57,135 bases of DNA, from positions 1 to 57,135 of the forward strand of contig JAUYET010000017.1 in the NCBI GenBank assembly GCA_030691265.1, in the 5' to 3' direction. The notes under the pieces were generated by a model. The model was given only the letters and a program-made list of their open reading frames with translations, did no database searches and was not told the DNA's origin. A program made the position numbers and the translations under genes. Below are positions 1 through 35,326 of the stretch, piece after piece. Numbering within the stretch: the first letter of the stretch is position 1; each line of letters begins with the position of its first letter. The stretch comes from Pseudomonadota bacterium. Its GTDB lineage: Bacteria > Pseudomonadota > Gammaproteobacteria > Burkholderiales > Thiobacillaceae.

Positions 1-1011
1 CGCTTCTTCCTCCACCACGGCGACATGACAGACTCTTCCTCGCTGATCCGCATCATCCAGCAAATCCAGCCCGACGAAATCTACAATCTCGCCGCCCAGT
101 CCCACGTCGCCGTCAGTTTCGAAGAACCCGAATACACCGCCAACTCCGACGCCTTGGGTTCGCTGCGCATCCTCGAAGCCATCCGCATCCTCGGCCTCGA
201 CAAGAAAACCCGCTTCTACCAGGCCAGCACCAGCGAACTGTTCGGCCTGGTCCAGGAAATCCCGCAGAAAGAAACCACCCCGTTCTACCCGCGCAGCCCT
301 TACGCCTGCGCCAAGCTCTACGCCTACTGGATCACCGTCAACTACCGCGAGGCGTATGGCATGTACGCCTGCAACGGCATCCTGTTCAACCACGAAAGCC
401 CGATCCGCGGCGAGACCTTCGTCACCCGCAAGATCACCCGCGCGCTGGCCCGCATCAAACTCAACCTGCAAGACTGTCTGTATCTGGGCAACATGGACGC
501 CAAACGCGACTGGGGCCACGCCAAGGACTACATCGAAATGCAGTGGCTGATGCTGCAACAGGAAAAGCCGGAAGACTTCGTCATCGCCACCGGCGTGCAG
601 TACAGCGTGCGCGACTTCGTCAACGCCGCCGCCAAAGAACTCGGCATGAGCATCCGCTGGGAAGGTACTGGCGTCGACGAAAAAGGCTATCTCCCCTCGC
701 CCGCAAGCGGGAGAGGGGCCGGGGCAGCCAGAGACTTGGCTGACGATGTTGGGCAGCCTAGTCGGTTGGCTGGTAGTCCTATCAGAGAGGGAGAGAAGTG
801 CATCGTCGCCGTCGATTCCCGCTACTTCCGCCCGACCGAAGTCGAAACCCTGCTCGGCGACCCCGCCAAGGCCAAGGCCAAACTTGGCTGGACGCCCAAG
901 ATCACCTTCGACGAGTTGGTGTCCGAAATGGTGCGCGAAGACCTCAAGGCTGCCGAACGCGACGAACTGGTCAAGAAACACGGCTACAAGGCGATGGATT
1001 ACCACGAGTAA
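1..1011 (+). CDS. gmd: GDP-mannose 4,6-dehydratase, 5'-truncated by window edge
   Basis: Converts GDP-D-mannose to GDP-4-keto-6-deoxy-D-mannose, the first step to GDP-L-fucose and other deoxyhexoses for surface polysaccharide. The frame is open from base 1, so the N-terminal Rossmann GxxGxxG lies outside the window. Visible family features are the YNLAAQSHV segment, the catalytic STSELFG, the active-site YACAK (YxxxK), [16 protein letters not shown] and the C-terminal [13 protein letters not shown]. Between GVDEKGY and [11 protein letters not shown] the protein carries about 36 foreign residues, encoded by repeat E1 (about 691-798) read in frame; ordinary family members have only a few residues there. 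The dehydratase core on both sides is intact, so the enzyme may tolerate the insert. fcl follows 0.6 kb downstream. Confidence 0.93.
691..798 (+). repeat. E-family GC-rich repeat in frame within gmd (E1)
   Basis: Starts with a palindrome (CTCCCCTCGCCCGCAAGCGG, then GAGAGGGGC). It continues with about 65 bp (GGCAGCCAGAGACTTGGC ... TATCAGAGAGGG) that is nearly identical to the segment preceding the DUF559 domain in cobT (about 34470-34553). It contains no nuclease. It is translated in the same frame as the cobT copy (both read GAARDLA and SRLAGS). Confidence 0.85.
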
Positions 1012-31606: not shown

Positions 31607-33204
31607 CTTGCCGCGTCCTCATGGTCCAGGGCTGCACCTCCGATGCCGGAAAAAGCGCGCTGGTCACGGCGCTGTGCCGCTGGTTGAAACGGCGCGGCGT
31701 GCGGGTCGCCCCGTTCAAGCCGCAGAACATGGCGCTGAACAGCGCGGTGACAGCGGATGTCGGCAACGGCAGCGGCGAGATCGGGCGGGCGCAGGCGGTG
31801 CAGGCGCAGGCTTGCGGACTGGCGCCGCACAGCGACATGAACCCGGTGCTGTTGAAGCCCAATTCCGACACCGGCTGCCAGGTCATCATCCAGGGCCGCG
31901 CGCTGACCAATATGGAGGCGCAGGCCTATCACGACTACAAGCAGGTGGCGCAGGCGGCGGTACTGGATTCGTTCGCGCGCCTGTCGAGCCAGTACGAGGC
32001 CATCGTCGTCGAGGGCGCCGGCAGCCCGGCAGAGATCAATCTGCGCGCCGGCGACATCGCCAACATGGGCTTCGCCGAAGCCGTCGATTGCCCGGTGATC
32101 CTGATCGCCGACATCGACCGCGGCGGCGTCTTCGCGCACATCGTCGGCACGCTGGCGTTGTTGTCGGAATCGGAACGGGCGCGCGTCAAAGGCTTCGTCA
32201 TCAACCGTTTTCGCGGCGACATCGCCCTGCTGCAATCCGGGCTGGACTGGCTGGAAAGGGAAACCGGCAAGCCGGTGCTGGGCGTGCTGCCGTATCTGCA
32301 CGGGCGGCATCTGGAGGCAGAGGACTCTCTCCCTCCCCCCTCGGGGGAGGGCCGGGGAGAGGGAGCGGCGGTGGATAGATCGACGCGGGTTCCCTCTCCC
32401 CCGGCCCCTCCCCCGAGGGGGGAGGGGGGGATTCGCGTCATCGTCCCGGTGCTGCCGCGCATTTCCAACCACACCGATTTCGATGCGCTGCGTCTGCATC
32501 CGAACGTGGATTTCCGCTTCATCGGCCTGGACCAGGGTGTTGACACCCCGCCGCCGCCGGCCGATCTGATCATCCTGCCCGGTTCCAAATCGGTGCGCGC
32601 CGATCTGGCCTTTCTGCACGAGCGCGGCTGGCCGGCGCATCTGCAACGGCATCTCCGCTTCGGCGGCAAGCTGCTGGGCATTTGCGGCGGTTTTCAGATG
32701 CTGGGGCGGGCGCTGCACGATCCGCTCGGCCTCGAAGGCGCGCCCGGTTCCAGCGCCGGCCTCGGCTGGCTGGACATGGAAACCACGCTGGCGGCGGACA
32801 AGCAGTTGCGCAATGTGAGCGGGCATCTGGTGCTGGGTAATGCGCCTGTGGCCGGCTACGAGATCCATGCCGGCGTCAGTGCAGGTTTGGCGCTGGGTCA
32901 GCCATTGCTTGTAGGGTGCGCCGTGCGCACCGGTGATGGTGCGCACGGCGCACCCTACGTCGATGGCGCCCTCTCGGACGATGGCCAGGTTGCCGGCACT
33001 TATCTGCATGGCCTGTTCGATACGCCCGCCGCCGCCGATGCGGTGCTGGCCTGGGCGGGCCTGGTTGAAGGCAAAGCGCCCGACATCCATGCGTTGCGCG
33101 ATGCCGCCATCGAGCGTCTGGCCGATGCGGTGGAAGCGCATCTGGACCTGCCCCGCCTGCTCGTGCTGTTGGAAAACCCGCTGGAGTCCGCATGTCACAC
33201 CTGA
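31603..33204 (+). CDS. cobQ: Cobyric acid synthase
   Basis: 533 residues; the family is about 485. It amidates four side chains of adenosylcobyrinate diamide using glutamine. The N-terminal P-loop-like region [34 protein letters not shown] and the amidotransferase [12 protein letters not shown] (nucleophile Cys) are intact. Two repeats add the extra length in frame: E2 (about residues 242-276) and B3 (16 residues, [16 protein letters not shown]). The start overlaps the upstream stop (ATGA) and the end overlaps cobU by 13 bp. Confidence 0.94.
32326..32430. repeat. E-family repeat in frame within cobQ (E2)
   Basis: Two inverted arms, CTCCCCCCTCGGGGGAGGG to GGGGAGAGGGAG on the left and the reverse complement on the right, with about 25 bp between. 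It has the same arms as the DUF559-bearing copy in cobT but no nuclease, so it looks like a non-autonomous form. Confidence 0.85.
32911..32958. repeat. GTAGG repeat, B type, in frame within cobQ
   Basis: 48 bp (16 codons) from GTAGG to CCTAC with the GTGCGC-CGT-GCGCAC hairpin in both orientations. Confidence 0.92.
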
Positions 33205-33722
33205 TCCTCGGCGGCGCTCGTTCCGGCAAGAGCCGTCATGCGCAGAATCTGGCCGCCGCCAGCGGCCTGACGGTGACGGTGATCGCCACCGGCCAGGCGC
33301 GCGACGCCGAAATGGCGGCGCGTATCGCGCGGCATCGGGCGGAACGGCCGCCGCACTGGCAAACGCTCGAAGAACCGCTGCATCTGGCCGTTGTGCTGCA
33401 ACAGGCTGCCGGGCCGGGCCGCTGCGTGCTGGTCGATTGCCTGACGCTGTGGCTGATGAATCTGCTGGAAGCCGGCGAGGCGGTGTTTGCGCAAGAACGC
33501 GCCGCTTTGCTGCAAGTCTTGCCGACGCTGGCCGGCGACATCCTGTTCGTCTCCAACGAAGTCGGCCTCGGCGTGATTCCGCTGGGCGAACTCAGCCGCC
33601 GCTTCGTCGATGAGGCCGGCTGGCTGAATCAGGACATCGCCCGCATGGCGGATTCCGTCACCTTCATCGCCGCCGGCTTGCCGTTGGCGCTCAAAACCAC
33701 AGCATCGAAAGCAGCCTTATGA
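33192..33722 (+). CDS. cobU: Adenosylcobinamide kinase / adenosylcobinamide-phosphate guanylyltransferase
   Basis: 176 residues, normal length. It phosphorylates adenosylcobinamide and transfers GMP to give adenosylcobinamide-GDP. P-loop [11 protein letters not shown] at residue 7, [32 protein letters not shown] and [27 protein letters not shown] are diagnostic. Overlaps cobQ and shares ATGA with cobT. No repeat is inserted. Confidence 0.95.
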
Positions 33723-35326
33723 CTTCCTGGTGGCAACAACCCGTCAAACCACTCGATGAAACCGCCCGCGCGGCCGCTAGCCAGCGCCAGGACACGCTGA
33801 CCAAACCGCCGGGCAGCCTGGGCCGGCTGGAAGAAATCGCGATCCATCTTGCCGCCCTGCAAGGCCGCGAGAAACCACAGATCGCGCAGCCGGCGATTAC
33901 CGTGTTCGCCGGCGATCACGGCGTCGTCGCGGAAGGCGTGGCGGCGTTTCCGCAGGCCGTCACGCAGCAGATGCTGGCCAATTTCGTCGCCGGCGGCGCG
34001 GCCATTTCGGTGCTGGCAAAAGCGCAGGGCGCGCGTCTGGAAGTGGTCGATGTCGGCACGCTGGCGGCTGCATCCATTGCCGGCGTGGTGAATGGCAAAG
34101 TCGGTTTCGGCACCGCGAACCTCGCCTGCGAGCCCGCCATGACTGAAGAGCAGTTCATGCACAGTCTCGATCAGGGCCGGCTCGCCGTGCAGCGCGCGCT
34201 GGCGGCCGGCGCGGATATTTTCATCGGCGGCGAGATGGGCATCGGCAATACCACGGCGGCGGCGGCGGTGAGTTGCGCGCTGCTGGGCCTGACCGGCGCG
34301 CAGATGGCCGGCCCCGGCACCGGCCTGGATGCGGCCGGGGTGAGTCACAAGGCGACGGTGATCGACCGGGCGTTGGCGCTGCACGGTTTCCTCCCCTCCC
34401 CCGCAAGCGGGGGAGGGGCCGGGGGAGAGGGAGCGCGTGGGAACGAAGTGACCTCAGCGTCCGCAAGCGGGGGAGGGGCCGGGGCAGCCAGAGACTTGGC
34501 CGCTGTAGTTGGGCGGCTTAGTCGGTTGGCTGGTAGTTCTATCAGAGAGGGGCAGTTCCCCGCTCAGGCCAAGCCCTTGCCCAGAGAAATCCTGTCGCAT
34601 GCCCGAGAGTTGCGCAAAAACCAGACCGACGCCGAACAGTTGCTCTGGGAAGTGTTGCGCGCCAAGCGCTTTATGGATTTGAAATTCCGTCGTCAGCATG
34701 CCGTCGCCCCTTACATCCTGGATTTTTATTGCGATGCGCTGAAGCTGGTGATCGAGCTCGATGGCGGACAACACGCCGAACGGCAGGGATACGACCAGGC
34801 CCGAACGGCATTTCTGGAAGGCAAAGGAATGATCGTGCTGCGCTTCTGGAATAACCAGGTGTTGGCGGAAACCGAGGCGGTGTTGGAGGCGATTTATGCG
34901 CTGGTACTGCAACGGCGACCCTCTCCCTCTCCCCCAGCCCCTCCCCCGCTTGCGGGGGAGGGGAGTATTGCCGCCCTGCGTTGTCTCGGCGGTTTCGAAA
35001 TCGTCGCGCTGGCTGGCGCCTACATCGCTTGCGCCCAGGCCGGGCTGCCGGTGTTGGTGGATGGCTTCATCACCAGCGCGGCGGCGTTGGCGGCGTGTCG
35101 GCTGAATCCCGGCACGCGCGCTTGGCTGTTGTTCGCGCACGCTTCCGCCGAACCCGGCCATGCCCGCTTGCTGGCCGCGCTGGATGCCCGGCCGCTGTTG
35201 CAACTCGATATGCGTCTGGGCGAGGGCAGCGGTGCGGCGACCGCGTTGCCGCTGTTGCGGCTGGCGTGCGCGTTGCATGCCGGCATGGCGACCTTCGCCG
35301 AAGCCGGGGTGAGTCGTGGAGATTGA
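33719..35326 (+). CDS. cobT: Nicotinate-nucleotide-dimethylbenzimidazole phosphoribosyltransferase interrupted by an in-frame DUF559 nuclease
   Basis: 535 residues; normal CobT is about 340-350. It activates dimethylbenzimidazole as alpha-ribazole phosphate. The N-terminal two thirds ([62 protein letters not shown]) and the C-terminal third ([31 protein letters not shown], and catalytic Glu in [10 protein letters not shown]) are intact. Between ALALHG and LRCLGGFEI lie about 195 extra residues: repeat-encoded Gly/Pro-rich linkers around a complete DUF559 domain (about residues 285-400). No stop or frameshift interrupts the frame. The product would be a CobT-nuclease fusion unless cleaved. There are no intein splice motifs. 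Confidence 0.93.
34391..34965 (+). mobile_element. E-family element carrying a DUF559 endonuclease, inserted in cobT (E3)
   Basis: About 575 bp. Terminal inverted repeats of about 43-45 bp (34391-34433 and 34921-34965; CTCCCCTCCCCCGCAAGCGG ... and its reverse complement) enclose an internal E segment shared with gmd, then a DUF559 domain. DUF559 belongs to the PD-(D/E)XK nuclease superfamily related to Vsr. Its likely catalytic residues are present: Asp335 (ILDFYC), Glu346 and Asp348 (VIELDGGQH) in cobT numbering. There is no ATG at the usual domain start; TTG near 34576 is the only candidate for separate translation. The same frame as cobT is used. Confidence 0.82.

Follow-up and report, generated by a model that had tools for sequence, protein, structure and literature searches.

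The window, the whole 57,135-nt stretch of DNA analysed here, carries a cobT gene that contains, in one reading frame, a DUF559 nuclease domain between two inverted repeat arms. Two further in-frame insertions bring the number in the window to three: one in cobQ and one in a GDP-mannose-dehydratase-like ORF, the latter named by eye. The features are:

33719..35326, plus strand: CobT-DUF559-CobT fusion ORF, 535 aa, ATG start, one uninterrupted frame
34391..34965, no strand: whole element, outer arm edge to outer arm edge (inverted-repeat search)
34391..34438, plus strand: left arm, a hairpin followed by an inward-pointing G-rich tail (triplex-motif form)
34453..34487, plus strand: partial second copy of the left arm (repeat families D1 and D2)
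34479..34551, plus strand: 73-nt piece in common with window positions 719-791
34592..34903, plus strand: DUF559 (PF04480) nuclease domain (Pfam), with D, E and D codons at 34721, 34754 and 34760
34918..34965, minus strand: right arm, an inverted copy of the left arm
32323..32434, no strand: inverted arm pair lacking the nuclease, in frame in cobQ (cobyric acid synthase), flanked by the CbiA and GATase_3 domains
686..800, no strand: partial element with a single hairpin and the 73-nt piece, in frame in the GDP-mannose-dehydratase-like ORF

In the fusion ORF, Pfam detected CobT (PF02277, E 1.8e-123) in two stretches, profile positions 1-211 and 214-329 of 329, lying either side of the insert. 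Solved CobT chains align up to fusion residue 222 and resume at residue 413 (two alignments inspected). DUF559 (E 6.3e-40) occupies residues 292-395 and spans positions 4-107 of the 109-position profile, and its D-x10-E-x-D residues map to the three codons given above. The fusion protein aligned with PDB 3hrl at E 1.2e-35. No family besides CobT and DUF559 was found in the fusion (Pfam, E 0.001), and no HUH (Y1) transposase. The arms are 48 nt long, 94% complementary and 479 nt apart, and the locus has an inverted-arm score of 81 (threshold elsewhere: 40). The original prediction of a complete DUF559 domain with its catalytic residues, enclosed by inverted arms and open in the cobT frame with both halves of CobT kept, was thus borne out in each of these parts.

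The element is composite, since it holds an extra arm and the 73-nt piece common to positions 719-791. No close empty allele of the cobT insertion was found among the relatives compared, and the element ends are therefore taken only as the arm edges. A second CobT was not found in the window's genome, an assembly of 117 contigs rated 58% complete. The arm pair in cobQ folds as a single strand with a z of -6.8, and its spacer closely resembles one in a related genome (G007:C11:357720-357767).

Inverted arms at DUF559 loci

We searched 101 genomes, the window's own and 100 relatives at one genome per species, with the PF04480 profile. DUF559 was matched in 52 of them, and all 60 matches above 75 bits were taken into arm scoring. 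Scores of at least 40 were obtained at 35 of the 60 loci and in 10 of 6289 random windows drawn from the same loci with the same geometry; 42 loci reached at least 32, and clear arms were absent from the other 18 (score <32). The set was then widened by 26 high-scoring loci from across the phylum, by 20 stretches chosen for long frames (one of these, L204, has no DUF559 match) and by the best 80 named loci, chosen by similarity to the window among the matches listed, giving 182 distinct DUF559 loci. A hairpin with a mirror tail stood on at least one side of 130 of these and on both sides of 64, counts for which there is no random-window control. By taxon label the carriers belong to Proteobacteria (including a Rickettsiales genome), Chloroflexi, Nitrospira, Methylomirabilota and Binatia, and many are metagenome bins. 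The association of DUF559 with these arms is very secure, and its absence had been named beforehand as what would overturn the prediction. The suggested mobile family has further members with inverted arms, but it is taxonomically widespread and not small.

The arm unit consists of a hairpin with a C-rich and a G-rich strand, about 2 nt, and a G-rich tail that mirrors the 3' strand of the stem. Over 354 units the tail matched the stem as a mirror at a mean of 6.18 of 9 positions, compared with 5.69 when stem-tail pairs were permuted between loci (sd 0.034, max 5.79). Read as a direct repeat the mean was 5.84 of 9, many stems being nearly symmetric; a match of at least 8/9 was reached by 154 units as mirror and by 89 as direct repeat. 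The window arms score 8/9 in both readings, so that this locus alone cannot tell a mirror from a direct repeat. At five loci (L142, L195, L199, L201 and L207; by eye) a second hairpin lies between stem and tail: the tail is retained and the connecting loop is itself a hairpin.

Many elements are flanked by ct at the left and ag at the right, and the true ends may thus lie a few bases beyond the hairpins. No clear target-site duplication was seen at the 64 two-armed elements, whose ends are approximate; direct repeats of 4 nt occurred at 9 of them (4.5 when permuted, max 14) and of 6 nt at one (0.2 when permuted).

This anatomy is that of the intrastrand triplex motif (TM, earlier PIT; Holder et al. 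2015, PMC4666352), although the triplex itself is a prediction: single-strand folding of the arms yields the hairpin only. We made the assignment from the described structure and from the string GGGAGAGGG, which occurs 22 times in the available text of PMC4666352, and not from consensus letters. TM/PIT repeats are apparently the boxC-type repeats. According to the same source, the G/C-rich motif is found in more than 260 genomes and in 23 copies in E. coli K-12, where the copies are always intergenic and mobility-providing activities were never found around them. The likeness to our arms extends from the hairpin with its third strand and the G/C-rich composition to the occurrence of inverted pairs and the many copies and genomes. 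In contrast to the E. coli copies, the arms described here are linked to a nuclease and often lie inside ORFs. Words beginning with nuclease or DUF are absent from the available text of that paper. One correction to the original prediction is that the arms match a published repeat form; the nuclease link is absent from what we have of its description.

Arm classes were set by patterns of our own and compared with the nuclease over the 130 armed loci. Between nearest DUF559 relatives of less than 85% identity the arm class was alike in a fraction of 0.777, versus 0.284 after permutation (max 0.40), and the Mantel correlation between DUF559 and arm class was 0.393 (permuted max 0.132). In all seven genomes with at least two classed loci, the DUF559 paralogues differed in arm class.

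The number of motifs likewise follows the nuclease. A strict motif pattern gave 1862 matches in the 101 genomes, compared with 239 for the reversed pattern. Genomes with full-length DUF559 (41) had a median of 25 motifs, and the 60 lacking it a median of 0 (p 4e-11); within the window's family the medians were 39 and 2.5 (p 8e-9). There are exceptions on both sides: five genomes hold at least 20 motifs without full-length DUF559 (G007, G022, G059, G074 and G083, with partial DUF559 matches in G059 and G083), and five have fewer than 5 motifs despite DUF559.

Inverted tail pairs 345-375 nt apart, a spacing picked from the DUF559 elements themselves, gave 20 matches versus none for the reversed pattern. 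Nineteen are distinct, in 12 of the 101 genomes; judged from coordinates by eye, a DUF559 match lies within 12 of these pairs and other DNA within seven. At 445-475 nt there were five matches, three of them around DUF559 (by eye), and seven with the reversed pattern. Short inverted tail pairs, 15-45 nt apart, occurred in 40 of the 101 genomes (192 matches versus 76 reversed). On contig 1 of G098, 10 inverted tail pairs of near-constant span (58-65 nt) lie among 35 motif matches, an arrangement that is REPIN-like.

Taken with the association, these results point to DUF559 as the cognate nuclease of these repeats, in the way that RAYT is of REP, with a mobilising role likely. They also suggest that the cobT insert belongs to a large mobile, or formerly mobile, family of DUF559 genes bounded by repeats of triplex form. 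We put the probability of each of these two readings at roughly two in three.

The strongest competitor, which we nevertheless consider unlikely, has the repeats spreading by replication slippage, recombination or some other enzyme, with DUF559 as passive cargo. Co-variation would equally arise from arms merely travelling with the gene, the authors of the triplex-motif study proposed replication-linked instability for these motifs (PMC4666352, available text), and the motif-bearing genomes without full-length DUF559 fit cargo, as do the seven tail pairs at DUF559 spacing that enclose other DNA. Cargo is less easily reconciled with DUF559 in 12 of the 19 intervals at that spacing and in three of five at the longer one, with a motif number that tracks DUF559, with an arm class that follows the nuclease subfamily, paralogues within a single genome included, or with the purifying selection found in nearly all pairs tested (below).

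DUF559 inside host genes

Long frames were found at 32 of the 60 DUF559 loci; in 20 cases DUF559 sits in frame within another gene or is fused to it, and the other 12 have no recognised host. The hosts are CobT, YgiQ (6), RecG (4, at two sites), TrpC (2), HsdR, AsnB, MmeI-type and Eco57I-type methylases, TatD, DnaG and BioA. Ten of these calls were made by Pfam, three (YgiQ) by domain search and seven by eye from the same host sequences. Among the best 80 named loci, drawn from the matches listed, a clear host domain was present in 22 of the 25 frames scanned. Here the hosts, named after their Pfam families, are MmeI (2), an HrpA-like helicase with DUF3418 (3), Mfd, HsdS (4), PriA, EarP, MetG, ValS, another class I tRNA synthetase (Val/Ile/Leu type, L131), MetH (2), a Mur-ligase-type protein, HsdM, two other DNA methylases and DUF1156; the host domain of L116 is weak, and L132 and L180 have none. 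Of 37 frames scanned with Pfam, 16 have host domains on both sides of DUF559, four more imply this by split matches, and three (L132, L180 and L195) lack a host domain.

Two isolates, Stagnimonas aquatica (L173) and Luteimonas mephitis (L174), are among the carriers, as is L107, which matches Mariprofundus erugo (L128). In two genomes each rated 100% complete (G014 and G032), the interrupted ygiQ is the sole ygiQ match. The Rickettsiales genome AM-377-L16 has two embedded DUF559 domains, in Mfd (L125) and in the class I tRNA synthetase of L131.

The same loops hold different contents in different species. Beside the LHGF motif of CobT, members of the window's genus have nothing recognisable (e.g. 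G002), a remnant (G022), one arm (G016), an inverted pair (G006 and G019), two tandem pairs (G012) or, in the window, DUF559; the arms of G016, G006 and G019 belong to another class than the window's. This comparison covers 18 of 25 CobT loci, four of the 18 being missed by the loop pattern. The YgiQ loop that follows HPDPYA is unoccupied in G030, carries arms of one class or the other in G010, G012, G021 and G002, and elsewhere holds DUF559; the pattern missed 18 of 30 loci. At the second RecG site, DUF559 is present in L039 and repeat-derived residues in L040 (by eye).

Short arm pairs, too, lie within genes. In 20 stretches of G012 and G014, 15 of 24 pairs sit at least 100 codons inside an ORF; this gives no support to a preference for coding DNA, as 0.75 of 921 random positions do so. 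Ten such frames were scanned, of which five have host domains around the pair, one a single domain and four none; the hosts are Mfd, aconitase, hydantoinase, MetH and an ABC transporter. MetH is used repeatedly, with two short arm pairs in L312 (from G012) and DUF559 in L173 and L177.

Embedded and short-frame loci differ in the presence of a nearby ATG. Within 25 codons upstream of the domain, an ATG was found at 6 of the 44 embedded loci, as against 67 of the 92 with short frames, and within 40 codons at 13 and 71, respectively; ATG alone was counted, with GTG and TTG left out. This comparison sets aside 46 of the 182 loci, whose frames are long but whose hosts are unconfirmed, and the missing nearby stop of embedded loci is partly built into their definition. 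The open frames, and the usual lack of an ATG of their own, support the predicted delivery of the nuclease as a CobT fusion, although GTG and TTG codons that might initiate translation are present, including in the window (5, 22 and 32 codons upstream of the domain).

On a tree of 136 DUF559 domains (105 columns), the embedded state requires 12 changes, compared with 37 when shuffled. One branch (support 92, not starred) contains 33 of the 44 embedded domains, in many host genes, together with 11 short-frame rows; the starred branches by themselves force just two changes between embedded and short-frame states.

Of 182 DUF559 domains, all but L025, L028 and L061 (179) retain the D, E and D residues, as do 42 of the 44 embedded ones. 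For embedded copies that share a host site, dN/dS was 0.036-0.10 in five pairs; three of these pairs have members in common, and dS is near 1. Over all 15 pairs, one value was near 1 (L047/L057), one was saturated and the others were at most 0.26. The embedded copies tested evolve under purifying selection.

Such selection would also be expected of a domain that is useful to its host enzyme, for example in defence or repair, and that was fixed by organismal selection. Copies at the YgiQ site in several genomes fit this account, as does an apparent bias to hosts that act on DNA (RecG, Mfd, PriA, the HrpA-like helicase, HsdR/M/S, MmeI, DnaG and TatD). We find domestication improbable, less likely still than cargo, as CobT, YgiQ, TrpC, AsnB, BioA, MetH, MetG, ValS and EarP have no common function and the CobT and YgiQ loops of related species hold nuclease-free repeats or nothing.

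As an observation in its own right, many hosts of DUF559 act on DNA (helicases, primase, restriction-modification), an apparent bias (L014, L021, L024, L029, L036, L107, L113, L115, L117, L120, L125, L126, L127, L133, L139, L145, L150, L154, L164, L166 and L194). Intragenic REPs show a similar bias to DNA-acting genes in the available part of PMC3733652.

That GC-rich runs, misassembly or chance open frames only mimic one element is highly improbable: the window's genome is incomplete and fragmented, C/G-rich sequence is open in many frames and the 12 long frames and three scanned frames without a host might suggest it, but the null windows, the permutations, the reversed-pattern control (1862 versus 239), the 16 frames with host domains on both sides and the isolates among the carriers speak against it. 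An assembly error as a one-off source of the cobT insertion, raised with the original prediction as a possible undoing, is unlikely because different repeat elements occupy this CobT loop in genus members and because the two complete genomes and the two isolates carry like insertions elsewhere.

The proposed cognate nuclease among known systems

The reading of DUF559 as the cognate nuclease of these repeats follows the argument made for RAYT and REP, which in the available part of PMC2817692 rests on repeats flanking the gene, on co-variation and on a repeat number that tracks the gene. In each of these respects the window locus and most DUF559 loci resemble the RAYT/REP/REPIN system, with inverted palindromic repeats flanking a gene with which they co-vary and whose presence their number follows; both systems also have short gene-free inverted pairs and no near-identical gene copies at other sites. 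Arm enrichment, co-variation and motif number thus give substance to the RAYT analogy of the original prediction; binding, cutting and movement, as well as production of the fusion protein, are inferred. The differences are also clear. RAYT (TnpA-REP) is an HUH tyrosine transposase and DUF559 a PD-(D/E)XK nuclease; DUF559 arms, unlike REPs, carry a mirror tail of triplex type; and RAYT genes are said in the available text always to be flanked, whereas arms are absent at some DUF559 genes. REPs are extragenic, while one DUF559 lineage lies in frame inside genes, although intragenic REPs are known too (PMC3733652, available part). The intragenic GTAG/CGTC REPs treated there and the Rickettsia palindromic elements resemble our elements in placing palindromic repeats in many unrelated genes, but their inserts carry no nuclease in the part of PMC3733652 available.

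Inteins and Vsr-like homing endonucleases (EDxHD, I-Bth0305I) also place a nuclease in frame within conserved, often essential genes. The DUF559 insert shares this position with them and differs in having no splicing domain and in being bounded by inverted repeats. An intein in cobT was ruled out, no Hint splicing domain being present in the window fusion (Pfam, E 0.001), and none was found in 37 other scanned DUF559 frames (Pfam, E 1e-5). A match to the mobile-intron nuclease PDB 3r3p (E 0.058) was non-significant: evident chance matches listed with it stood at 0.077.

The relation of DUF559 to Vsr is based on the detection of Vsr by YcjD at 1e-5 (PMC1189080, available part). According to the available text of PMC12907096, a methylase mutant of Caulobacter needs the DUF559 protein VsrA to mount its SOS response, and a part in mismatch repair is proposed for VsrA, a reminder that other DUF559 roles exist. 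A Legionella segment that occurs repeatedly and carries both a transposase and a DUF559 gene is reported as a hotspot of mutation and recombination (PMC12308824, available part). No literature link between DUF559 and triplex repeats was recognised among the top matches of our search, which were mostly open-access, and prior notice elsewhere is possible.

In our proposal, each nuclease most likely recognises the hairpin-and-tail fold of its own arm class and would nick or cut there. Repair from another copy could then spread the element with its nuclease or the short arm pairs that lack one, in a homing-like manner and often to sites already holding such repeats. No near-identical DUF559 copies at different sites were found in our species-level set (one genome per species), so that movement would be slow or was not caught. 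One lineage would mostly do without start and stop codons of its own and persist inside conserved genes, the embedded nuclease being translated within the host protein and joined to it by Pro/Ser/Gly-rich linkers that the arms encode. Such a lineage may be kept in place because a host gene survives only those insertions that are in frame and fall in permissive loops.

In E. coli K-12, a copy of triplex form lies 166 nt downstream of ycjD, a DUF559 gene, with the second loop TTA, as in type A of PMC4666352 (available text). A degraded copy is found at the 3' end of ycjD itself (by eye). By our own arithmetic, the chance that one of the 23 K-12 copies lies so near a given gene is about 0.4%. A fabI-ycjD-sapF query was at least 80% present in 3333 of 5426 genomes. 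The presence of ycjD next to fabI differs between E. coli genomes (L213 and L317). In strain R11, a TetR-family regulator and RND efflux genes, presumably eef, follow fabI in place of ycjD, so that the R11 locus is not a simple empty allele. No precise empty ycjD site was found, R11 being the one strain without ycjD that was inspected.

In its widest form, which we regard as evenly balanced between true and false, the proposal makes DUF559 the missing mobiliser of TM/PIT/boxC-type repeats throughout bacteria, E. coli included. One start-less and stop-less lineage would then pass from gene to gene in the frame of its hosts, and CobT, MetH and valyl-tRNA synthetase would be working fusions with an active nuclease. 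The gene ycjD and its neighbouring motifs make the idea testable in E. coli K-12.

A repeat-framed nuclease inside unrelated genes suggests that a kind of mobile DNA has been overlooked. If this is true, a common bacterial repeat whose spread was reported as unexplained would have its cognate enzyme, and DUF559, a domain of unknown function, would gain a role. Persistence inside essential genes with neither splicing nor a start codon would be a new way of life for selfish DNA, and its insertions would supply new protein linkers and domain fusions.
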